A model generated the notes under the pieces. The model saw only the letters and a program-made list of their open reading frames with translations, did no database searches and was not told the DNA's origin. The translations under genes were made by a program, and so were the position numbers. DNA of 38,749 bases, taken from the NCBI RefSeq assembly GCF_020741345.1, contig NZ_DYZD01000300.1, positions 1-38,749 of the forward strand. The letters are read 5' to 3'. Position 1 is the stretch's first letter, and the number at the start of each line of letters is the position of its first letter. Source of the stretch: Nocardiopsis listeri (GTDB lineage Bacteria > Actinomycetota > Actinomycetes > Streptosporangiales > Streptosporangiaceae). Below are positions 4,035-18,818 of the stretch, in pieces.

Positions 4035-4657
4035 CGTCGGCCCTCCTTCACCAGGGTGCGGACGTGTTCGACCAGGGCGATGAGGACCCGCTTGGCCGAG
4101 GTCCGATCGCGGGCGTCGCAGCGCAGCAGGGGCACGGCCGGGTCCAGGTCCAGGGCGGCGCGCACGTCCTCCAGGGGGTGGTCGGCCTCACCGAAGTCGT
4201 TGTGCGCCACCACGAACGGGGTGCCCTGGGCCTCCAGACGGTCGATGGCGTAGAAGCAGTCCTCCAGGCGACGCGTGTCCACGAGGACCACCGCGCCCAG
4301 GGCACCGGAGAACAGGCGGTCCCACAGGAACCAGAAGCGTTGCTGGCCGGGGGCGCCGAACAGGTACAGGACCGAGGTGGTGTCCATGGTGATGCGCCCG
4401 AAGTCGAAGGCGACGGTGGTGGTGCCCTTGGCCTCGACCCCCTGGAGGTCGTCCACCGAAGCGCCCGCGCTGGTCATGGTCTCTTCGGTGGTCAGGGGCC
4501 TGATCTCGCTGACCGAACGCACCAACGTGGTCTTGCCGACCCCGAAACCACCGACCACGGCGAGCTTGAGGGCCTGGGCGGCGCCGGCGGGGAGTGGGGT
4601 GCCCGGGACGCCGAGGGTTCCGTCGGCGGGTGCGGGTTCAGAGGTCGTGGAGTGCAA
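4031..4657 (-). CDS. cvnD: Conservon small GTP-binding protein (CvnD)
   Basis: A 208-aa Ras/MglA-like GTPase of the DUF7/conservon type. After about 30 proline/alanine-rich residues come the P-loop GGFGVGKTT, a switch II segment with GAPGQQRFWF in place of a strict DxxG, and an N-D base-recognition segment (AHNDF). In Streptomyces conservons CvnD forms a membrane-associated signalling complex with CvnA, CvnB and CvnC, likened to eukaryotic G-protein systems. The start at 4657 overlaps the end of cvnC by 20 bases, and the stop overlaps the CYP157-like gene by four. No GEF or GAP is recognisable beyond the Roadblock partner. Confidence 0.93.
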   Translation of the reverse strand: MHSTTSEPAPADGTLGVPGTPLPAGAAQALKLAVVGGFGVGKTTLVRSVSEIRPLTTEETMTSAGASVDDLQGVEAKGTTTVAFDFGRITMDTTSVLYLFGAPGQQRFWFLWDRLFSGALGAVVLVDTRRLEDCFYAIDRLEAQGTPFVVAHNDFGEADHPLEDVRAALDLDPAVPLLRCDARDRTSAKRVLIALVEHVRTLVKEGRR

Positions 4658-10110: not shown

Positions 10111-11100
10111 TCAGGTGATGACCCGCTGGACCTCCAGCATGCGTTCCACCGTGCGGAACCCGAAGAGGTCGTTGACCGCACGCATCGGGGTGTTGGCGGG
10201 ATCCACCCAGGTACGGACCCACTTCGCCTCGGGAACGTCCCTGGAGAGCGCTTGGAGGTTGCGCCGCTTGAGCGCCACACCCAACCTGTTGCCCCGATGG
10301 GCGCGCATCACCAACGTGTCGTCCTGGTAGACCTCACCCTCTCCTTCCGTCGGGACCATCATCAGGCTGTACCCGGACCACTCCCCCGACCCGGCCCGCG
10401 CGACGGAGACGATGGTGGTGTACCCCTGGTCGGCACGGCGCAGGTCCTCCTTCCGGATCCGGTCGGCGTCCCACACCTGCGGTTCGGTGTCGAGCCCGCC
10501 CGTGGGCACGTCACGCTCCATCGCGGTGCGCATCCGCGCGTAGTCCTCCAGCAGTTCCTCCGGACAAGGACCCGTCCAGGTGAGCGTTCGGTGTTCACCG
10601 GTCACCTCGGGCAGGGCGGCCAACCGTTGCTCCGGGACGGGAAGGTCCAGCACCTGGTAGTCCTCCTCGTGCACGACGTCGAAGCCATGGGACCGGGCGA
10701 ACAGGGCACCCGGCCAAGCGTCCGGGTCGCACCCCCCGGGGACGTAGACCTCACCGGTCGCGGTGGTGCGCCCCTCCTCTTCCATGACCTTCGTGGCCAG
10801 TTCGAGCAGTCGTCCGCCCAGGCCCCTGCCCCGGTGTTCCGGGACCACCGAGACGTCCACCTCGGCCAGGTGCCGGTTCTCCAGGTCCGGAAGGTCGATG
10901 AGGAGGGTGCCCACGGTGCGTTCGTCCTCCACCGCGGCGTACAACCTGTGGTGCCGGTCCTCGCGCGGGGCGACCATCCCCTTGAGGTCGGGAAAGCCCA
11001 TAACGGCGGCCTCCGCGCGGCCGGCCGTCGCCCCCTCGACCAGGGCCGTGTGCCAGGCACGCAGGGCGGACTCGTCCGTGGCGTCGATCGGGTTGATCAT
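10111..11100 (-). CDS. Tandem GNAT-domain acetyltransferase
   Basis: A 329-aa protein with two GNAT folds, as in mycothiol synthase (MshD) and related double-GNAT enzymes. The N-terminal domain carries an acetyl-CoA loop RGRGLGGRLLELA (motif A). The C-terminal domain has AHRGNRLGVALKRRNLQAL and the typical N-x-x-M-x-x-V-N-x-x-x-G-F-R end (NTPMRAVNDLFGF). It is the last gene of the accessory operon, 33 bases after the MFS gene. It could acetylate the cluster product or a toxic intermediate (self-resistance or tailoring) (inference). The substrate is unknown. ATG at 11100. Confidence 0.85.
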   Translation of the reverse strand: MINPIDATDESALRAWHTALVEGATAGRAEAAVMGFPDLKGMVAPREDRHHRLYAAVEDERTVGTLLIDLPDLENRHLAEVDVSVVPEHRGRGLGGRLLELATKVMEEEGRTTATGEVYVPGGCDPDAWPGALFARSHGFDVVHEEDYQVLDLPVPEQRLAALPEVTGEHRTLTWTGPCPEELLEDYARMRTAMERDVPTGGLDTEPQVWDADRIRKEDLRRADQGYTTIVSVARAGSGEWSGYSLMMVPTEGEGEVYQDDTLVMRAHRGNRLGVALKRRNLQALSRDVPEAKWVRTWVDPANTPMRAVNDLFGFRTVERMLEVQRVIT

Positions 11101-11133: not shown

Positions 11134-12441
11134 TCAGGCGGGTTCGGAAGCCTTGCCGGCTCCCTCCGCGACGGGTTCACCGAAGCCGCGCAACCGCGCA
11201 GAGGTCATGGCCAGTAGCGCCGCGGCCACCCCCAGCAGGCCCGCGAAGACCAGGAAGAGGGCGGTGGCGCCGGTCTTTTCCTCACCCAGCAAGGTCACCA
11301 TGGTGTCCGCGCCGGTATCGGTGAACAGCGGTGTCAGTACGTAGTCCACGACCGGGCCGGCGATGAGCAGGCCCAGGGGCAGGGACGACTGCGCGAGGAG
11401 GCGACGGGCCCCGAAGACGCGGCCCTGTTGCCGCTCCGGCACGTGGGACTGCCAGATCGCCTGGTAGGCGGAGTTGACCGCAGGAAGCACGGCACCGGCC
11501 ACCAGGGAGGAGGCGATCCACAGCCACGGGGTCCAGGACAGACCCAGCAACAGGGGTCCGGCGACCGAACCGATCGCCATGCCGCCCAGCACGAGGGTCA
11601 TCCGTTGGAACCGGTCGCCCACCGCACTGACGACCAGGGCTCCCAGCACTCCGCCCGCGCCTCCGGCCGCCAGGACCACCCCCAGGAGAGCCTGGTCGTC
11701 CCCGCTGCGCAACATGATCAACGGGGTGGTCAGGGCGTAGGAGATCGCCCCGGAGAAGTTGAGCACGAAGAACAGCAGGAGTAGGAGCACCAGGGGCCGG
11801 CTGCGGAAGATGTAGGTGAACCCGAACAGCAGGTCCGCCCGGAACACCACCCACGAACGCCGCTGCTCTCCCTCGGCCACGGCCGGTCGAGGGGTGCGGA
11901 CCATCAGCAGGACCAGCGCGGCGAAGACGAAGGTCACCAGGTCCAGGAGCAGGATCATCGACAGGTCGGTCAGCGCCAGCAGGACACCCCCCAGGGCGGG
12001 GGCGAGGATCTCCGACCCGGGCGCGGCCAGACTGATCATTCCGTTGGCGCGAACCAGCCGTTCCTCCACCACCAGGAGTGGGACCAACGCCATGTAGGCC
12101 ACCAGGTGCAGGGACTCCATCACCCCTTCGAACACGGCGATGACGTACAGGTGCCAGATCTCCAGGTTCCCCGTGAGATAGAGCGTCAGAACGGTGGACG
12201 TGGTGATGGCGAGGGCGCCGTCACCGACCAGGACGGCCACCCGTGGCCCGATGCGGTCCACGAGTGCACCGGCGATCGGGGCCATGGCCAGGCCGGGGGC
12301 CAGGGAGAGCAGTGTGAGCATCGCGAACAGGGTCGCCGAACCGGATTCCGCCCACACCCACAGGGTGATGGCGAACCAGGCCGTGCCCGAGCCGATCGCC
12401 GACATGAGCTGGGTCGACCACACCAGGGAGAAACGTCGCAT
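11134..12441 (-). CDS. MFS efflux transporter
   Basis: A 435-aa major facilitator protein with about 12 hydrophobic segments, beginning FSLVWSTQLMSAIGSGTAWFAI. It carries the DRIGPR loop motif between helices 2 and 3 and a second DRFQR loop in the C-terminal half. It resembles the MacB/TetV-like drug-efflux branch (MFS_3). The start is 6 bases after the 2OG oxygenase stop and 33 bases precede the GNAT gene, so it belongs to the accessory operon and is the only exporter there. No peptidase-containing ABC transporter is present, so any leader removal must be done by another protein. Confidence 0.88.
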   Translation of the reverse strand: MRRFSLVWSTQLMSAIGSGTAWFAITLWVWAESGSATLFAMLTLLSLAPGLAMAPIAGALVDRIGPRVAVLVGDGALAITTSTVLTLYLTGNLEIWHLYVIAVFEGVMESLHLVAYMALVPLLVVEERLVRANGMISLAAPGSEILAPALGGVLLALTDLSMILLLDLVTFVFAALVLLMVRTPRPAVAEGEQRRSWVVFRADLLFGFTYIFRSRPLVLLLLLFFVLNFSGAISYALTTPLIMLRSGDDQALLGVVLAAGGAGGVLGALVVSAVGDRFQRMTLVLGGMAIGSVAGPLLLGLSWTPWLWIASSLVAGAVLPAVNSAYQAIWQSHVPERQQGRVFGARRLLAQSSLPLGLLIAGPVVDYVLTPLFTDTGADTMVTLLGEEKTGATALFLVFAGLLGVAAALLAMTSARLRGFGEPVAEGAGKASEPA

Positions 12442-12447
12442 ACCGCC

Positions 12448-13002
12448 CTAGACCGCCTCGCCGGAGAGGTCGTCGCCACGATGCGGCAACGGCGGGATCG
12501 TCACGAGGGTGTAGCGCTCCTCGCAGGCCACGGGATCGACCCAGTGCCAGGCCTGGGGGTCGTGCTCGACGAAGGTGCCGGCACGGTCGGGGACGAACAC
12601 CATGGTCTCGGGGTCGTGCTGGGCGTTGAGCCCATCCGTCCCCGAAGTGGTGAGCATGTACAGGCCCTGGCGCAGTGAGTCCCGGTGCGGCAGGACGTAG
12701 TCTCCCCGGTCGTACCTGTTGACCTGAACGTAGTAGTCCCTCTTCGGCGTCCCCTCGGGGGTGATGGCGGCGAAGATCGCCGCCCTGAGGTCCTCGGGCA
12801 TCCAGGCGGACTGGAGGACGTGATAGCGGTCGTCGTCCTCGTACTCGGAGTCCCGGTAGGGGTCGAAGGGGTCTGTTCCGGCCGGCCGGGGCGGGGCCGC
12901 GGGGTCGGGGTGATCGGCGAACAGGTGTCGGTAGCGGCGGGCGAGGGAGACGATCCCCGCGCAGTCGGCCACCACGTCCGGAACCACGGTCAACGGCCTC
13001 AT
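12448..13002 (-). CDS. 2-oxoglutarate/Fe(II)-dependent oxygenase-like protein
   Basis: A 184-aa compact double-stranded beta-helix protein. The facial triad is visible as His106-x-Asp108 (LPHRDS) and His153 (WHWVDPV), with Arg163 (ERYTLV) placed to bind 2-oxoglutarate. The preceding strand is YYVQVNRYDRGDYV. Such small oxygenases hydroxylate or desaturate amino acids or peptides. The ATG at 13002 overlaps the stop of the paralogous upstream gene (ATGA), so the two are probably made in equal amounts. Within the cluster it would oxidise the peptide or an amino-acid unit (inference). Confidence 0.8.
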   Translation of the reverse strand: MRPLTVVPDVVADCAGIVSLARRYRHLFADHPDPAAPPRPAGTDPFDPYRDSEYEDDDRYHVLQSAWMPEDLRAAIFAAITPEGTPKRDYYVQVNRYDRGDYVLPHRDSLRQGLYMLTTSGTDGLNAQHDPETMVFVPDRAGTFVEHDPQAWHWVDPVACEERYTLVTIPPLPHRGDDLSGEAV

Positions 13003-13466
13003 CGCACTCCCATCACAACGCTGTACCTGGGCGCACCTCGCACGGGACTCACCCACGCCCACGACCCCGGCGGCAGGAGCAGACCCGTGCCCACCCGATC
13101 CAGGACACGCTCGAAGCGCCCTCCGATCCAGGCGGTGACCCCGTCGACCTCGGAGTCGCTCAGGGGGAAGGTCAGCTCCCAGTCACCGGCCACGGTGTCG
13201 CCCACCCGACGGGGCAGGGTGAAATCGCCGACGTCGTGACGTTGCACCCGAACCGTCGCCGGGTCGGGTGTGCCGGGCAGTGACGAGGCGACGGCGACGA
13301 GGCGATCACGCAGACCCGGCTGGTCGACGGCCAGGTCGGTGTACCGGGACCGGGCCCCGGTGAGGTCCTGCGGTGCCGTGACCGGTAGACCTTCCAGCGC
13401 CGCTCTCACCTCCTGCGGCAGGGTGTGGGCGACGGGTACCTCCGTCGGCCCTTCGGTGAGGATCAT
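12999..13466 (-). CDS. Degenerate 2OG-oxygenase paralogue lacking iron ligands
   Basis: A 155-aa protein whose C-terminal half aligns by eye with its downstream neighbour: RVQRHDVGDFTLPRRV corresponds to QVNRYDRGDYVLPHRD, and WAWVSP...RYSVV to WHWVDP...RYTLV. In these positions the ligands are replaced: Arg86 for His106, Val88 for Asp108 and Ala137 for His153, while Arg147 is kept. It therefore cannot bind Fe(II) in the usual way. It may be a structural or substrate-binding partner of the active oxygenase (inference). ATG at 13466 with AAGGAG upstream; the stop overlaps the next start by four bases. Confidence 0.75.
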   Translation of the reverse strand: MILTEGPTEVPVAHTLPQEVRAALEGLPVTAPQDLTGARSRYTDLAVDQPGLRDRLVAVASSLPGTPDPATVRVQRHDVGDFTLPRRVGDTVAGDWELTFPLSDSEVDGVTAWIGGRFERVLDRVGTGLLLPPGSWAWVSPVRGAPRYSVVMGVR

Positions 13467-13477
13467 CGGTTTCTCCT

Positions 13478-14986
13478 TCACTCCAGATCGGTCAGGTCGA
13501 CGGGGACGGCGTCGGGGTCGGAACGGCGCAGGGAATCGATGTCGGGGTGGGCCGCCACCTCCATCAACAGCTCCACCACCGCCGCGCGCCCCCACCCGGC
13601 CCGTGCGCCCATCGCCACCTTGAACAGGCCCCGCCCTTCCTTGAGGGAGGGGATGATGCACTCGAAGCGGTGGGCGCGGAAACCGAAGCTCGACCCGTGC
13701 GAGAAGGGCAGTCCTCGACGACGCGCCTGGGAACGCAACACACCGAGCAACAGTCCGTGGTGCTCCAGCGTGTCCTCACGCAGGTGGCACACGACGAACG
13801 GAGCCTGCGCCCAAGGGGCGGCGGGGCCCTCGGCCAGCGAGGGATGGGCGATGCGGGTGAAGAGTCGTCCCGGCCCCGCCAGGTCGGCGAGCACTCGCGC
13901 GGTCAGCGCGTTGTTGCGCAGGACCGCGAGCGCGTGGTCACGGGCGGCCGCCCGATCCAGGACGAACGGGGCGCTGAGCACCGAGAGGGCTTCCAGGGAC
14001 AGACCGGATCCCACGACGGTGCGCATCTTGCGCAGGTACGTGGCCAGATCGGCGGCGGGGGGAAGTGCCGGATCGGACCGGCGTGCGTACAGGGAGGCCA
14101 CCCCCAGGTTGCCGAGTTCGAGCCCTCGCTGGTCGAGTTTGAGCCCGGAGCGGACCTCGACGACCAGGACGCCCGGGTCGCCGACGGCCTCCACGAACCG
14201 TTCCCTCGGCCACACCGGCGAGACGAGGGTGGAGTCCACCACGACCAGGCCGGGACGGCTCCCCCGCCGCCCCCGCCAGGCGCCCAGCAGCGCCGGCAGG
14301 TCGAGTGCGTCCAGTTCCCACTCGTAGCGCACGGGTTCGATGAACAGCACGTCCACCTCACCTGTGAGGAGACAGGACCGCAGTTCCTCTTGGGTGTCGG
14401 CGCGTCGACAGCGCAGGCCGTCGTCGGAGACCAGGTCGAAAAGGACTCCGGTCTCGTAGTAGGCACCCCACATCAGCAGGTTCAAAGGGCGGTCGGCGGT
14501 CTGCCGGATCAGACTCCGGTAGCACTGGAGGAGCCCGGCGATGGACGCCATACCGCTGGAGTACACGACGTGCGCCACCTCGTGGTGATCGAGCTCGGCG
14601 TCCTGGGCCGCGAGCCGTTCCTCCAGGGAGTGGCATTCGATGTTGCGTTCGTAGCTGTGCGTGGAGGGAGGCCCGAAGGGCAACGTCATCGGGGTTCCCA
14701 GGGGCGGTGACTTGTAGCGCGGATCCGTGAATCCGTGGGCGTGGCGGATCCACATCACCCGCAGGTCCGCCTCCGCCCGGTCCATCTCCGCCTCTGCCTC
14801 GGGTCCCTGCCGTCCGGTCAGGGAGGTGACCCGTTCACGCCACCCTCGGATCGACTCGGTCGGATTCCCCTCCGCGTCCGGGGGAAAGAGCGCGTCGGCC
14901 AGCCCGAGCAGGGCGGTGACGTCGTCGTGTGCGGTCATCGGGGCCGCGCCCGTGCGTCCCTCGGTCGCGTCCATGGTCCCGGTCAT
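13478..14986 (-). CDS. Fold-type I PLP-dependent enzyme (Cys/Met-metabolism-like)
   Basis: A 502-aa protein with the layout of the cystathionine-synthase/lyase group. After about 130 N-terminal residues comes a PLP-phosphate loop VVYSSGMASI (141-150), then a stacking aromatic segment (WGAYYET), an IEP strand, Asp251 in VVVDSTL to pair with the PLP nitrogen, and the Schiff-base Lys283 in RSGLKLDQ. A C-terminal small domain follows. Reactions in this family are beta/gamma eliminations or replacements; the actual substrate is unknown. The ATG at 14986 overlaps the upstream stop (ATGA), and the protein is longer than the 380-400 aa typical of the group. It is in the middle of the accessory operon. 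Confidence 0.75.
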   Translation of the reverse strand: MTGTMDATEGRTGAAPMTAHDDVTALLGLADALFPPDAEGNPTESIRGWRERVTSLTGRQGPEAEAEMDRAEADLRVMWIRHAHGFTDPRYKSPPLGTPMTLPFGPPSTHSYERNIECHSLEERLAAQDAELDHHEVAHVVYSSGMASIAGLLQCYRSLIRQTADRPLNLLMWGAYYETGVLFDLVSDDGLRCRRADTQEELRSCLLTGEVDVLFIEPVRYEWELDALDLPALLGAWRGRRGSRPGLVVVDSTLVSPVWPRERFVEAVGDPGVLVVEVRSGLKLDQRGLELGNLGVASLYARRSDPALPPAADLATYLRKMRTVVGSGLSLEALSVLSAPFVLDRAAARDHALAVLRNNALTARVLADLAGPGRLFTRIAHPSLAEGPAAPWAQAPFVVCHLREDTLEHHGLLLGVLRSQARRRGLPFSHGSSFGFRAHRFECIIPSLKEGRGLFKVAMGARAGWGRAAVVELLMEVAAHPDIDSLRRSDPDAVPVDLTDLE

Positions 14987-16104
14987 GTGTTCCGCCCTCC
15001 TTCGGCGCGCACGACCTCCTGATGCGGCGGGCCCCATCCGTGCAGGTCGCGCATCATGCTCGCGGTGTAGGCCCCGGACGCGTTGAACACCAGACGGTCC
15101 CCGGGCCGAGGGTCGGACAGCGACACCTCCTCGGCCAACACGTCGTTCTCGTAGCAGGTCACCCCACCGATCAGGTGGGGACGCCCCGGCCCGTCCCGTT
15201 CGGGCAGGCGCGCCACCACCCTCGGGCTCCCCCAGGTGAACAGGTTCCATCCGGAGGCGTCGGCCACGGCGTATCCACGGCCGTCGGGGAACCCATCGAC
15301 GGAGCGCAGGCGGACCACGAGGTAGCCGGCCAGCGCGGTCGTCAACATGCCGGGTTCCAGGAGCACGCGCACGGGAGCACCGGCGAGACGTTCGGCGACG
15401 CGCTTCCAGGCCCGCCGGGCCTGCTGCCGGTCGGTGTACAGCGTGGTCAGACCGCCGCCCAGGTTGAGTTCGCGCACTTGTGGGAAGGCGCGCAGGCAGG
15501 TGGTCAGGGCCGACGTCAGCAGGTCGGCCCGGTCGGGTGTCCCGATCTCGCCGCTGTGCACGTGCAGTCGTACGACGCGTGTGTCGGTCCCGGCCAGGAG
15601 CCGGTGGAGTTCGGGGTCGGCGGGATCGACACCGAACCTGCTCGCGCGGCGCCCGGAGGTCCGGTCCTGTTCGGCCATGGGCACGCGCAGACGCAGTCCG
15701 ATCTCCCGTGGCGAGGGTCGGGTCTGCAGGAGTGAGCGCAGCTGGTCGACGCCATCGACGTCGACCAAGGCCCCCTGCTCGGCCATGGCGGCGAGCCGGT
15801 CGCCGGTCAGTCCGGGCCCGGTGACGCTGATCGGGTCCATGCCGGCTTCCCGGGCCGCGCGGTACTCGGCGGGTGAGGCGACGTCCGCGCCCACGCCGAG
15901 GTCGGCCAGGTGGCGCAGCAACGGCGGGAAGCGGTTGGCCTTGAGGGCGAACAGCAGGACGCTCTTCGGGAACGGAGCGGTGTCCTCGCGCAGTTCCCGG
16001 ACCGTGGCCGTGACCGCGTCCAGGTCGTACAGGAGTGCGGGGGTGGTGACGGTCCGGGCGGACCGCAGGATCGCCTCGCCGGGTGTGGAGGAGCCCATCG
16101 TCAC
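14983..16104 (-). CDS. Alanine-racemase-fold PLP decarboxylase-like protein (DapDC/ODC type), copy 1
   Basis: A 373-aa fold-type III PLP protein. The N-terminal TIM barrel carries the Schiff-base Lys55 in FALKANRFP, followed by GVGADVASPAEY, SRFGVDP, HVHSGE, a glycine-rich LNLGGGL and EPG. The C-terminal beta domain holds GVTCYENDVL and GAYT. In ornithine and diaminopimelate decarboxylases the corresponding C-(D/E)SxD segment contributes Cys and Asp across the dimer interface. Here the Cys is kept and the context is changed to CYEND. The start is a GTG at 16104 overlapping the arginase-like stop (GTGA), or an ATG two codons in. A paralogue is encoded at 17345-18547. Confidence 0.82.
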   Translation of the reverse strand: MTMGSSTPGEAILRSARTVTTPALLYDLDAVTATVRELREDTAPFPKSVLLFALKANRFPPLLRHLADLGVGADVASPAEYRAAREAGMDPISVTGPGLTGDRLAAMAEQGALVDVDGVDQLRSLLQTRPSPREIGLRLRVPMAEQDRTSGRRASRFGVDPADPELHRLLAGTDTRVVRLHVHSGEIGTPDRADLLTSALTTCLRAFPQVRELNLGGGLTTLYTDRQQARRAWKRVAERLAGAPVRVLLEPGMLTTALAGYLVVRLRSVDGFPDGRGYAVADASGWNLFTWGSPRVVARLPERDGPGRPHLIGGVTCYENDVLAEEVSLSDPRPGDRLVFNASGAYTASMMRDLHGWGPPHQEVVRAEGGRNT

Positions 16105-17348
16105 GCACCCCCTTCCCGATGGCCGATGGCCGAGTCCAGGGCCCGCAACAGCAGGTCGGCGACGATCAGCCCGTCCGTCTCCCCCTCATGGGGCAGGAAC
16201 TCGACCACGTCGATCCCGACGATGCGTCGGGCCGAGCACAGGTCGGTCAACAACCCGACCAGTTCGGCGTGGGTGAAACCTCCGGGCAGGGGCGTGCCCG
16301 TGGCGGAGAGCACCGAGGGGTCCAGCGCGTCCACGTCGATGGTCAGGTGGTAGGGCAGGGAGTCGGGGAGTTCGGCGAGGATCTCGCCGAGCGGGGTGCT
16401 CAGCGCCGACCTTCCGGGCCAGCGGCGCAGTGTGTCGTCCGGCCGTGCGGGCGGATCCTCCAGTTGGCGCAGGCCGAACTGGGCGAGGCGGACCACCCGA
16501 GGATCGCCTACCACCCAGTCCATGACGTTTCCGTGGTGGCAGTGGAGTTCGGCGTCGTCGTGGCGGGGACGGGCGTAGTCGCCGTGGGCGTCGATGTGCA
16601 GGACGCCGAGATCGCCGTGGACCTCGGCCAGACCTCGGACGATGGGCAACGTGACGGAGTGGTCGCCGCCCAGGATCACCGGGAGGCGGCCGTGCCCGCT
16701 GAGGCGGCCCACCACGTTCTCCAGCACCGACCAGGTGGGCCCGGCGGAACGGTGCACGTTGGTGGTCACGTCGCCGATGTCCGCCAGACGTACTCCGGCC
16801 AACACACGTCTCCCGGTCACCGGGTCCACGGCACCGGACGGGCCGTCGACGGTGTCCCGGTAGCGGAACAGGGCGCCTCCGGTACGTCGTAACTGGGCGG
16901 GACCGAACCTGCTGCCGGGCCGGTGCGAGGCCCCCAGGTCGTAGGGCATCCCGAGGAAGACGACATCGCAGGACTCACCGCGCAGTGCCTCGGCCAGGGT
17001 GAGGACCGGGGCGCCGAACATGCCGCCTCGCCCGGCGGGGGTGGGGACTCCGTCCGGGTCGTGTCGTCTTATGAGGCCTCGTTCTCCCAGGGCCGTGACC
17101 AGGGCGCGCAGGTGGGATCGGTCGGTTCCTTCGCCTTGGGCAAGGGTGGCCAGGGTGCGGGGAACGGCGAAGGCGGCGAGCAGGTCGGCGGTGACCGGAC
17201 CGACCTCCAGTTCCCACCCCTCACGGGTGTGCCACACGGTGGTGCGACCGTCCTGCGAGCCCCGCAGGGCCAGCAGGGGTTCGGTGGCCAAGAGGGTGTC
17301 GTCGGTGATCGGAGGGGCCTGCATCGCCCCGGGGCCGGAGTCGTTCAC
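16101..17348 (-). CDS. Agmatinase/arginase-family ureohydrolase with N-terminal RRE/PqqD-like domain
   Basis: A 415-aa two-domain protein. Residues about 115-410 form a ureohydrolase with every manganese ligand in place: GGDH (His230), DAHGD (Asp253, His255, Asp257) and the DVDALDP motif (Asp338, Asp340), plus GIDVVEF (Glu383). The family hydrolyses guanidino groups to amine and urea. Residues about 15-97 are not part of known arginases. They form a strand-rich start (TTVWHTREGWELEVG) and then a winged-helix pattern (PVTADLLAAF...HLRALVTALGERGLIRR) like the PqqD/RiPP-recognition fold. This suggests leader-guided action on a peptide arginine. GTG start at 17348, overlapping the upstream stop. 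The domain junction uses the rare codons ATA-AGA (residues 93-94). Confidence 0.82.
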   Translation of the reverse strand: MNDSGPGAMQAPPITDDTLLATEPLLALRGSQDGRTTVWHTREGWELEVGPVTADLLAAFAVPRTLATLAQGEGTDRSHLRALVTALGERGLIRRHDPDGVPTPAGRGGMFGAPVLTLAEALRGESCDVVFLGMPYDLGASHRPGSRFGPAQLRRTGGALFRYRDTVDGPSGAVDPVTGRRVLAGVRLADIGDVTTNVHRSAGPTWSVLENVVGRLSGHGRLPVILGGDHSVTLPIVRGLAEVHGDLGVLHIDAHGDYARPRHDDAELHCHHGNVMDWVVGDPRVVRLAQFGLRQLEDPPARPDDTLRRWPGRSALSTPLGEILAELPDSLPYHLTIDVDALDPSVLSATGTPLPGGFTHAELVGLLTDLCSARRIVGIDVVEFLPHEGETDGLIVADLLLRALDSAIGHREGGA

Positions 17349-18547
17349 GCGGTGGCCCCCGCGGTGGTGAGCGCGGCTTCGGCGTCGATCATGTGCTCAC
17401 CGTCGAAGAGGTGTTCACGTGGCGGGGGGATGCGGTTGAACCACCGGGCGTTGGTGATGGTGTAGGCGCCGGTCGCGGTGATGACCAGGCGGTCGCCCGC
17501 ACGGCAGTGGGGCACCTCCAGGGTGGTGCGAGCGGCGGTGGGGGTGGCGCCGAAGAAGTCGTTCTCGTAGAGGGTGCAGCCTGCCAGGAGGGCGGGAGCG
17601 CCGGGCCGACGTCCGTCCAGGGACAGGACCTGGGGCCGGTTGTGCCAGGGGGCGAGGTTCCAGGCGGAGGCGTCCAGGGTCACGACGCGGGTGTCGAGGA
17701 CCGGATGGTGCTCCTCCACCGACCGCACCCTGGTGAGGAGATACCCGTAGGGGGTGAGCAGCGCACCTCCGGGCTCGAAGCGCAGGGAGATCGAGCGACC
17801 GGTACGTTCGCGCCAGCCCGTGACGAGCGCGGCGACGTCGCCGAACGCGTCGATGGCGCTCGCCCGATCCCGGTAGAGGTGGAAGAACCCGCCTCCGAGG
17901 TCGATGGTGTGCACCTCGGGCAGGTGCTCGGCGACGGTGAGGAGGTAGCGGGTCTTGTAACGCAGGGAGTCCGGGGTCATCTGGCCGGTGTGGACGTGCA
18001 GCCGGGTGGGCCTCAGCCGATGTCGTTCGAGCACCCGTGTGAGTTCGGGGTCGGCGGGGCGGACTCCGAAGCGGCTGTCTCCGGCGAAGGTCGCCGTGTC
18101 CTCCAGGGCCTCGGGGAGGTCCACTCGCACACGTATCCCCACCTCGTCCCCGGGGCGATGCCGTCCGTAGGAGTCGAGTTGATCGAGGGAATCACAGTCC
18201 AGGGTGATCCCTCGCGCGGCCAGGGCGTCGAAGTCGGTTTCGGTGAAAACGGGGCCCGTCGCGGAGATCTCGGCGAAGCCGGCGTTCACGGCCAGGTCGA
18301 GTTCTCCGGGGGAGGCGACGTCGCAGCCGAGTCCGAGCGCGGCCATCTCCCCGAGCACGGCGGGGGTGTGGCACGCCTTGAGTGCCAGGTTGAGTCCTGC
18401 GTCGGGGATGAGGGCGACGTCGTGGCGCATCGCCTCCACACCCGCACGAATACCGGGCAGGTCGTAGATCAGCGCGGGGGTGTCGAGATCCTCGGCGAGC
18501 GCGAAGAGGCGTTCGCTCGGTGGGGTGAACAGGGGGGCTGGTGGCAT
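17345..18547 (-). CDS. Alanine-racemase-fold PLP decarboxylase-like protein, copy 2
   Basis: A 400-aa paralogue of the protein at 14983-16104, with Lys57 (NLALKACH) as Schiff-base lysine, CDVASPGEL, SRFGVRPADPEL, HVHTGQM, IDLGGGFF, EPGG and the C-terminal GCTLYENDFF and GAYT. The residue matching the catalytic Cys of ornithine/diaminopimelate decarboxylase is Leu here, whereas copy 1 keeps Cys. These enzymes build active sites from two chains, so the copies could form a heterodimer with one full site (inference). ATG at 18547 with GAAGGA upstream; the frame continues upstream but only as an off-frame shadow of the precursor gene. It is the first enzyme gene after the putative precursor. Confidence 0.82.
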   Translation of the reverse strand: MPPAPLFTPPSERLFALAEDLDTPALIYDLPGIRAGVEAMRHDVALIPDAGLNLALKACHTPAVLGEMAALGLGCDVASPGELDLAVNAGFAEISATGPVFTETDFDALAARGITLDCDSLDQLDSYGRHRPGDEVGIRVRVDLPEALEDTATFAGDSRFGVRPADPELTRVLERHRLRPTRLHVHTGQMTPDSLRYKTRYLLTVAEHLPEVHTIDLGGGFFHLYRDRASAIDAFGDVAALVTGWRERTGRSISLRFEPGGALLTPYGYLLTRVRSVEEHHPVLDTRVVTLDASAWNLAPWHNRPQVLSLDGRRPGAPALLAGCTLYENDFFGATPTAARTTLEVPHCRAGDRLVITATGAYTITNARWFNRIPPPREHLFDGEHMIDAEAALTTAGATA

Positions 18548-18635: not shown

Positions 18636-18818
18636 CTAGTTGGCGCGGGGGCGGCTGCCGCCGAGGGTGCCGAGGTCCATGCTGATCTCGCGGACGTCTG
18701 CACCGCCGATCTCACGGATGGACTCGTCGATGACGGCCTGTTCGCTCCAGGCCTCGCCGGTGAAGTTGGCGTCGAACTCCTTTTCGAGGTCGGCCAGCTT
18801 CGTCTGCAAAGTGGGCAT
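18636..18818 (-). CDS. Putative RiPP precursor peptide (60 aa)
   Basis: A 60-aa acidic peptide of unknown family, first gene of the accessory operon. The N-terminal 50 residues are helical and rich in Asp/Glu (LQTKLADLEKEFDANF, then AVIDESIREIGGADV), like a leader. The C-terminus is MDLGTLGG followed by SRPRAN, so a double-Gly at 53-54 precedes a six-residue tail with Arg56 and Arg58. It has no Cys and a single Trp24. AAAGGA lies about 7 bases before the ATG. The RRE-like domain fused to the arginase and the modifying enzymes downstream make a ribosomal precursor the best reading. A small non-substrate partner protein is the alternative. The core boundary is inferred only from the Gly-Gly. 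Confidence 0.72.
   Translation of the reverse strand: MPTLQTKLADLEKEFDANFTGEAWSEQAVIDESIREIGGADVREISMDLGTLGGSRPRAN

Follow-up and report, generated by a model that had tools for sequence, protein, structure and literature searches.

An apparent RRE-fused peptide arginase in a seemingly undescribed family of RiPP gene clusters

Introduction

What does a manganese ureohydrolase do with an additional N-terminal domain, when a short peptide is encoded close by? This question is raised by contig NZ_DYZD01000300.1 of Nocardiopsis listeri, whose positions 1 to 38,749, the whole stretch of 38,749 nucleotides analysed here, we refer to as the window. Enzymes that convert arginine to ornithine in RiPP precursors after translation have precedents in OspR, FlmR, OhkR, PbsE, BipC and KgrD. 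According to PMC12703449, most of the characterised peptide arginases (OspR, FlmR, OhkR and PbsE) belong to PF12640, KgrD being the exception in PF00491, and the basis on which such enzymes recognise their precursors is called unclear.

The best reading of the gene studied here, and one in which we place considerable confidence, is a peptide arginase that docks the leader of its own substrate. That is, we infer for this protein both leader binding and arginine-to-ornithine turnover. We take it for an RRE-fused peptide arginase in an apparently undescribed RiPP family, and it very probably acts early in the route to what looks like a new type of ribosomal peptide natural product.

Results

A ureohydrolase with an additional domain

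The features of the locus are collected in Table 1. The fusion gene encodes 415 amino acids, and its GTG start codon overlaps the stop codon of the gene upstream. Its sole Pfam match is to the Arginase family PF00491 (residues 128-392, E 1.4e-50), and all six manganese ligands are in place: H230 in the motif GGDHS, D253, H255 and D257 in DAHGD, and D338 and D340 in DVDALDP. The family match and the six ligands together mark the protein as a ureohydrolase, and the complete ligand set anticipated in the original prediction is thereby borne out. The predicted reaction is hydrolysis of a guanidine group.

Table 1. Features of the RRE-arginase locus in the window
Feature	Coordinates	Strand	Basis
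GNAT acetyltransferase	10111..11100	(-)	Pfam
MFS exporter	11134..12441	(-)	Pfam MFS_1, E 2.4e-35; kept in L006-L008
Small putative 2OG-Fe(II) oxygenase B	12448..13002	(-)	weak 2OG-FeII_Oxy_3 match, E 0.022, below cutoff
Small putative oxygenase A, partly similar to oxygenase B	12999..13484	(-)	A/B cross-hits, tblastn; no Pfam match of its own
Cystathionine gamma-synthase-like (CGS-like) fold-I PLP enzyme	13478..14986	(-)	motifs; profile match to 1n8p
DC2, second fold-III PLP decarboxylase-like protein, catalytic Cys kept (GVTCYEND)	14983..16104	(-)	Pfam, alignment
RRE-arginase fusion	16101..17348	(-)	ORF reading, Pfam, alignment, clade
Ureohydrolase catalytic domain, residues ~124-406	16131..16979	(-)	PF00491, agmatinase/guanidinase fold, Mn ligands
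Predicted RRE domain of the fusion, residues ~18-96	17061..17297	(-)	AlphaFold2 domain model; Foldseek and VIA matches
DC1, fold-III PLP decarboxylase-like protein, DapDC/carboxynorspermidine decarboxylase family	17345..18547	(-)	Pfam, profile search, alignment
Precursor peptide, 60 aa, ...REISMDLGTLGGSRPRAN	18636..18818	(-)	direct reading; motif conservation
Arg58 codon of precursor	18645-18647	(-)	variable
Arg56 codon of precursor	18651-18653	(-)	invariant

The fold of the N-terminal domain

In a Pfam scan, the N-terminal ~110 residues of the fusion match no family above threshold; there are weak sub-threshold matches, some of them to winged helices. The RRE (RiPP recognition element) is therefore visible by predicted structure and not by sequence profiles. 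We modelled residues 15-112 alone with AlphaFold2, using an alignment with seven homologues, which is shallow but yields structure matches that are mutually consistent. The model has a mean pLDDT of 80.7, and its strands (model residues 6-8, 12-18, 21-26 and 31-35) and helices (37-45, 52-56 and 63-75) follow the order of an RRE; that is, the predicted structure is a PqqD-like winged helix in which a three-strand sheet is followed by three helices.

When the model is compared with the PDB by Foldseek, TigE (8vpo, E 2.1e-4) and the TbiB1-leader complex (5v1v, 2.9e-4) are found at the top with a probability of 1.00, together with another lasso B1 protein with its leader and the heterocyclases LynD and TruD; MccB ranks lower. 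The VIA Z scores are 11.2 for TigE, 9.6 for TbiB1 and 9.2 for LynD (heterocyclase 4v1v). TruD and MccB both score 8.6, the PbtF RRE 8.2, and PqqD 7.6, its superposition covering 79 residues at 2.3 A. The winged helices of the ribosomal oxygenases NO66, MINA53 and YcfD also match, but the RREs outrank them in Foldseek E-value and in VIA Z (7.8 or less, versus 11.2 for 8vpo). Fold prediction had been set beforehand as the test that could overturn the proposal of an RRE-like extra domain, and both searches returned RREs. Thus, we conclude that the domain is, in its predicted structure, of the RRE fold. The TbiB1-leader complex among the top matches is suggestive of precursor leader binding by the domain. 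In the full-length AlphaFold2 model the domain has a pLDDT of ~35-55, so it is poorly placed relative to the active site.

Seven homologues carry the same domain, which the agmatinases of those genomes lack. A comparison of the window with Nocardiopsis coralli gives a dN/dS of 0.25 for the RRE region and 0.18 for the catalytic part, which indicates purifying selection on the RRE. Given its presence in the homologues, this selection, and the agmatinases without it, a chance origin of the domain is unlikely. Its predicted fold is that of the RREs of TigE, TbiB1, LynD/TruD, MccB and PqqD, to which its sequence identity is ~10-23%, and here too a precursor gene lies next door. Several known RREs are, like this one, N-terminal fusions to the modifying enzyme; an RRE fused to a ureohydrolase is not described in the open-access literature that we searched.

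A clade apart from housekeeping agmatinases

In a tree that includes housekeeping paralogues from the window's genome and from the genomes of its homologues, the eight RRE-arginases (a small set, in which two pairs are close relatives) form a single clade with support 100/99, apart from eight paralogues of agmatinase type. The housekeeping proteins align with the fusion from about residue 91-117 onward, that is, without the N-terminal domain. The substrate loop of the RRE clade, DYARPRHDDAELHCHHGN, which sits between the second manganese motif and the following HG motif, is specific to the clade and 2-3 residues longer than that of the housekeeping agmatinases (for example, DTWDTYFGEPYTHGT). 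Such a loop would be consistent with a different substrate. Of the eight genomes searched by profile, seven contain separate agmatinase-like paralogues, as does the window's own genome. The cassette appears to be rare: outside the window and the loci described here, no copy turned up when viral contigs, phages and samples of 150-400 genomes from the family and phylum were scanned.

A conserved precursor peptide

Directly upstream of the cassette genes, seven clusters (six from Actinomycetota and one from a plasmid of Mammaliicoccus, in Bacillota) encode a peptide of 27-60 aa. Besides the window, whose peptide ends ISMDLGTLGGSRPRAN, the hosts are Nocardiopsis coralli, Nonomuraea jabiensis, Thermoactinospora rubra, Actinacidiphila glaucinigra, Nocardioides and Mammaliicoccus sciuri. 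The peptides end in [GA][GA]SRP followed by two or three residues, with GGSRPR in six of the seven; the motif is kept in L003 and L006-L009, and takes the form AASRPSGN in L010. Homologous cassettes in other genera, and in another phylum, are preceded by a peptide with this C-terminal motif, and for that reason we regard the 60-aa peptide gene of the window as real. Its dN/dS against L006 is 0.33. The locus thus has the makeup of a RiPP cluster: a short precursor gene with conserved leader and core segments lies beside modifying enzymes, and the arrangement recurs across taxa.

In the alignment of the precursors, Ser-Arg-Pro is invariant (7/7), the second arginine is replaced by serine in Nocardioides, whose peptide ends VLAASRPSGN, and variation is also seen in the final one or two residues. 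Since Arg56 is invariant and Arg58 is not, Arg56 is the main predicted substrate. The original prediction had named the neighbouring peptide as the substrate, which the conservation of the motif across clusters backs, and Arg56 and/or Arg58 as the targets; of these, the case for Arg56 is strengthened by its invariance, and that for Arg58 is weakened by the serine in Nocardioides. The I-x-M-D-L-like segment just before Arg56 is, from its sequence, the best candidate for docking to the RRE.

The precursor on the Mammaliicoccus sciuri plasmid pWHA07 (L003:7644-7727, unannotated, MTENIRNATPSISLDLDLMGGSRPRLK) has 27 aa, fewer than any other member of the family, and its leader amounts to little besides the conserved segment. 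We also considered a microcin-C-like action on the C-terminal asparagine of the window peptide, and dropped it: the peptides end in different residues (N, S, T, K), and the arginase clusters show no MccB homologue, which counts against it as well.

The PLP enzymes of the cassette

In the clusters compared, the RRE-arginase is always accompanied by DC1 and by the CGS-like enzyme. (The Actinoplanes contig ends inside DC1, and the precursor region of that cluster would lie beyond it.) The window, L003, L006, L007 and L008 also have DC2, and all of these but L003 carry the two small putative oxygenases. No radical SAM gene is seen in the RRE-arginase cluster, PLP enzymes standing in its place, and no dedicated protease is recognised there. 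The original prediction did not include this conserved cassette, which is more informative about the pathway than the arginase by itself.

The CGS-like enzyme matches the profile of yeast cystathionine gamma-lyase (1n8p, E 5e-6), and its Y-x-R, SSGM, Asp and PLP lysine motifs are invariant, or nearly so, in ten sequences, which places it in that family. At the position that we take to be the usual carboxylate-binding arginine, these enzymes have lysine, except in L005. Among the fold-III decarboxylase-like proteins the PLP lysine is kept throughout; the catalytic cysteine is present in DC2 and in the partners of L012 and L013, and is leucine in all seven DC1 proteins compared. The profile of this family matches diaminopimelate and carboxynorspermidine decarboxylases almost equally, with the carboxynorspermidine decarboxylase 3n29 at 5e-45.

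A CGS-like enzyme paired with a DC also occurs at three places without the arginase. In the marine gammaproteobacterium HTCC2148 (L013:8539-14872), the pair stands beside a lasso-cyclase-like protein (E 4e-112, below the curated cutoff), an HPr-kinase-like protein, and a peptide whose lasso-leader match is sub-threshold and whose probable core contains Lys-Lys-Lys; no lasso protease is seen near this cluster. On the Enterococcus faecalis plasmid LR962333 (L005:4303-11974), it is found with a ThiF/E1-like protein, a 392-aa protein of no named family, an MFS-like protein, a large peptidase-like protein and a candidate precursor of 25 aa (4303-4380); the locus probably belongs with the ThiF-type RiPP clusters that PMC12250964 mentions. 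In a Rhodospirillaceae MAG (L012:8055-11515), the CGS-like gene is divergent from a carboxynorspermidine-decarboxylase-like gene, which matches nspC (E 9.8e-68, below the equivalog cutoff), and the pair lies beside a giant repetitive protein; this genome has no RRE-arginase, and no precursor was recognised at the locus. A CxxCxxCC (PF03692-type) protein adjoins the pair in both L012 and L013.

Discussion

A proposed pathway

We propose that the N-terminal RRE would dock the leader of the 60-aa peptide, whose gene lies two places upstream of the fusion gene, most likely with the conserved segment IxMDLxxL adding as a strand to the RRE sheet. With the leader docked, the neighbouring SRPR would come to lie at the di-manganese centre, where Arg56, and probably Arg58 too, would be hydrolysed to ornithine and urea. 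The CGS-like enzyme might then alkylate the new delta-amine with a 3-amino-3-carboxypropyl group, and the DapDC/carboxynorspermidine-decarboxylase-like partner might decarboxylate the adduct, so that a polyamine bound to the peptide is left. Trimming of the product would follow, along with export through an MFS or ABC transporter, and possibly acetylation that protects the producer.

The later steps of this scheme are much less secure than the first. The idea that the CGS-like enzyme and DC build aminopropyl groups on the ornithine amine draws upon the nspC-like partner in L012, the profile match to 3n29, and the precedents of MccD/MccE and Mur24, and we offer it tentatively, as less likely than not. 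It is similarly doubtful that the clusters make ribosomal peptides with polyamine side chains and that the same two-enzyme module decorates the amines of lasso-type and E1-type peptides, or that the transferase is a CGS-like PLP enzyme and not one of SAM methyltransferase or spermidine synthase type.

Weighing the alternatives

The enzyme might instead hydrolyse a free guanidine compound (arginine, agmatine or guanidinobutyrate), with the ornithine or amine so formed feeding the PLP enzymes; some other factor would then modify the peptide, and the N-terminal domain would have a different role. Its catalytic domain is indeed closest, in sequence and in fold, to guanidinobutyrase, agmatinase and guanidinase, and the decarboxylase-like neighbours resemble enzymes of free amino acids. 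However, the RRE fold on the same chain, the invariant arginine in the adjacent peptide of seven clusters, and the separate agmatinase-like paralogues all make this an unlikely account. Still less probable, in our judgment, is that the domain is an oligomerisation or lid element, as in the N-terminal extensions of guanidinases, whose likeness to an RRE reflects a common winged-helix arrangement. The longer-chain guanidinases 9fek and 7esr do rank high against the full-length model, and the ribosomal-oxygenase winged helices also score, but these rank below the RREs, and the gene sits in a cluster that contains a precursor.

With peptide arginase activity retained as the preferred reading, it is the polyamine step alone that competes with other PLP chemistry, to which we would give somewhat less than an even chance. 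The CGS-like enzyme or DC1 might form an aldimine with the delta-amine and transaminate it, and the resulting semialdehyde might close a ring with the backbone or a neighbour; or the enzymes might act elsewhere on the peptide. Cysteine variants of ornithine decarboxylase shift to decarboxylation-dependent transamination, and DC1 has leucine in place of the decarboxylase cysteine, which makes decarboxylation by DC1 doubtful. The change of the substrate-carboxylate arginine to lysine in the CGS-like enzyme points the same way. Against this, DC2 and the partners in L012 and L013 keep the cysteine, and the L012 partner is clearly carboxynorspermidine-decarboxylase-like. Given DC1 without its cysteine and the altered carboxylate-binding residue, we treat the polyamine step as hypothetical, with transamination and cyclisation, or other chemistry, as likely.

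Relation to known systems

The closest precedent for the arginase is KgrD of the enteropeptins, likewise a PF00491 manganese ureohydrolase that acts on an arginine of a RiPP precursor beside other maturases. As described in PMC12703449, KgrD differs in that the enteropeptin is a sactipeptide and its thiomorpholine must be formed first; no RRE fusion is mentioned in that description. OspR, FlmR, OhkR, PbsE and BipC have PF12640/UPF0489 motifs (DXHXD, EEHNEAF, LDIDLDYFSC), unlike the RRE-arginase, and a fused RRE is reported for none of them in the open-access literature searched. It had been claimed that the known peptide arginases are single-domain, which is too simple, since PbsE is described as TPR-containing (PMC12257519) and OspR carries an inserted extra dimerisation domain (PMC10028609). 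In the literature searched, peptide arginases have no dedicated leader-docking domain, and the RRE fusion would supply one. A native fusion of this kind would be a clean, separable recognition module, and possibly a portable tool for arginine-to-ornithine editing.

For the PLP pair, the precedents are the aminopropylation of microcin C, by MccD and then MccE, and muraymycin Mur24, which catalyses PLP-dependent transfer of an aminocarboxypropyl group from SAM (PMC12250964, PMC10491745). With carboxynorspermidine decarboxylase they share the logic proposed here, in which 3-amino-3-carboxypropyl transfer is followed by fold-III PLP decarboxylation, and Mur24 demonstrates that a PLP enzyme is capable of the transfer. 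MccD, however, is of SAM methyltransferase type and acts on a phosphate, whereas the candidate transferase here is cystathionine-synthase-like. MccE also carries a GNAT immunity domain, and GNATs adjoin the RRE-arginase cassette. No cluster with this fusion, a polyamine RiPP, a CGS/decarboxylase RiPP or this type of precursor is described in the open-access literature searched. If the polyamine reading is true, the pathway chemistry would be new. The conservation of the pair from actinomycetes to a Mammaliicoccus plasmid, and its lasso-type and E1-type settings, point to a peptide modification that is still unexplored, perhaps polyamine side chains on ribosomal peptides.

Other genes near the cassette

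The usual neighbours of the cassette are GNAT acetyltransferases (adjoining it in L003, L007 and L010) and an MFS or ABC exporter; the GNAT of the window likely serves in self-protection or tailoring. The genes for oxygenases A and B (window:12448-13484) overlap and resemble each other, and are probably a tandem duplication. Two further kinds of protein recur near the cassette and may possibly serve in self-protection: an APH-like phosphotransferase (L007:4041-5009, L009:6081-7088) and a ~344-370-aa protein of no named family (L007:1336-2370, L009:4643-5686, L010:7239-8351).
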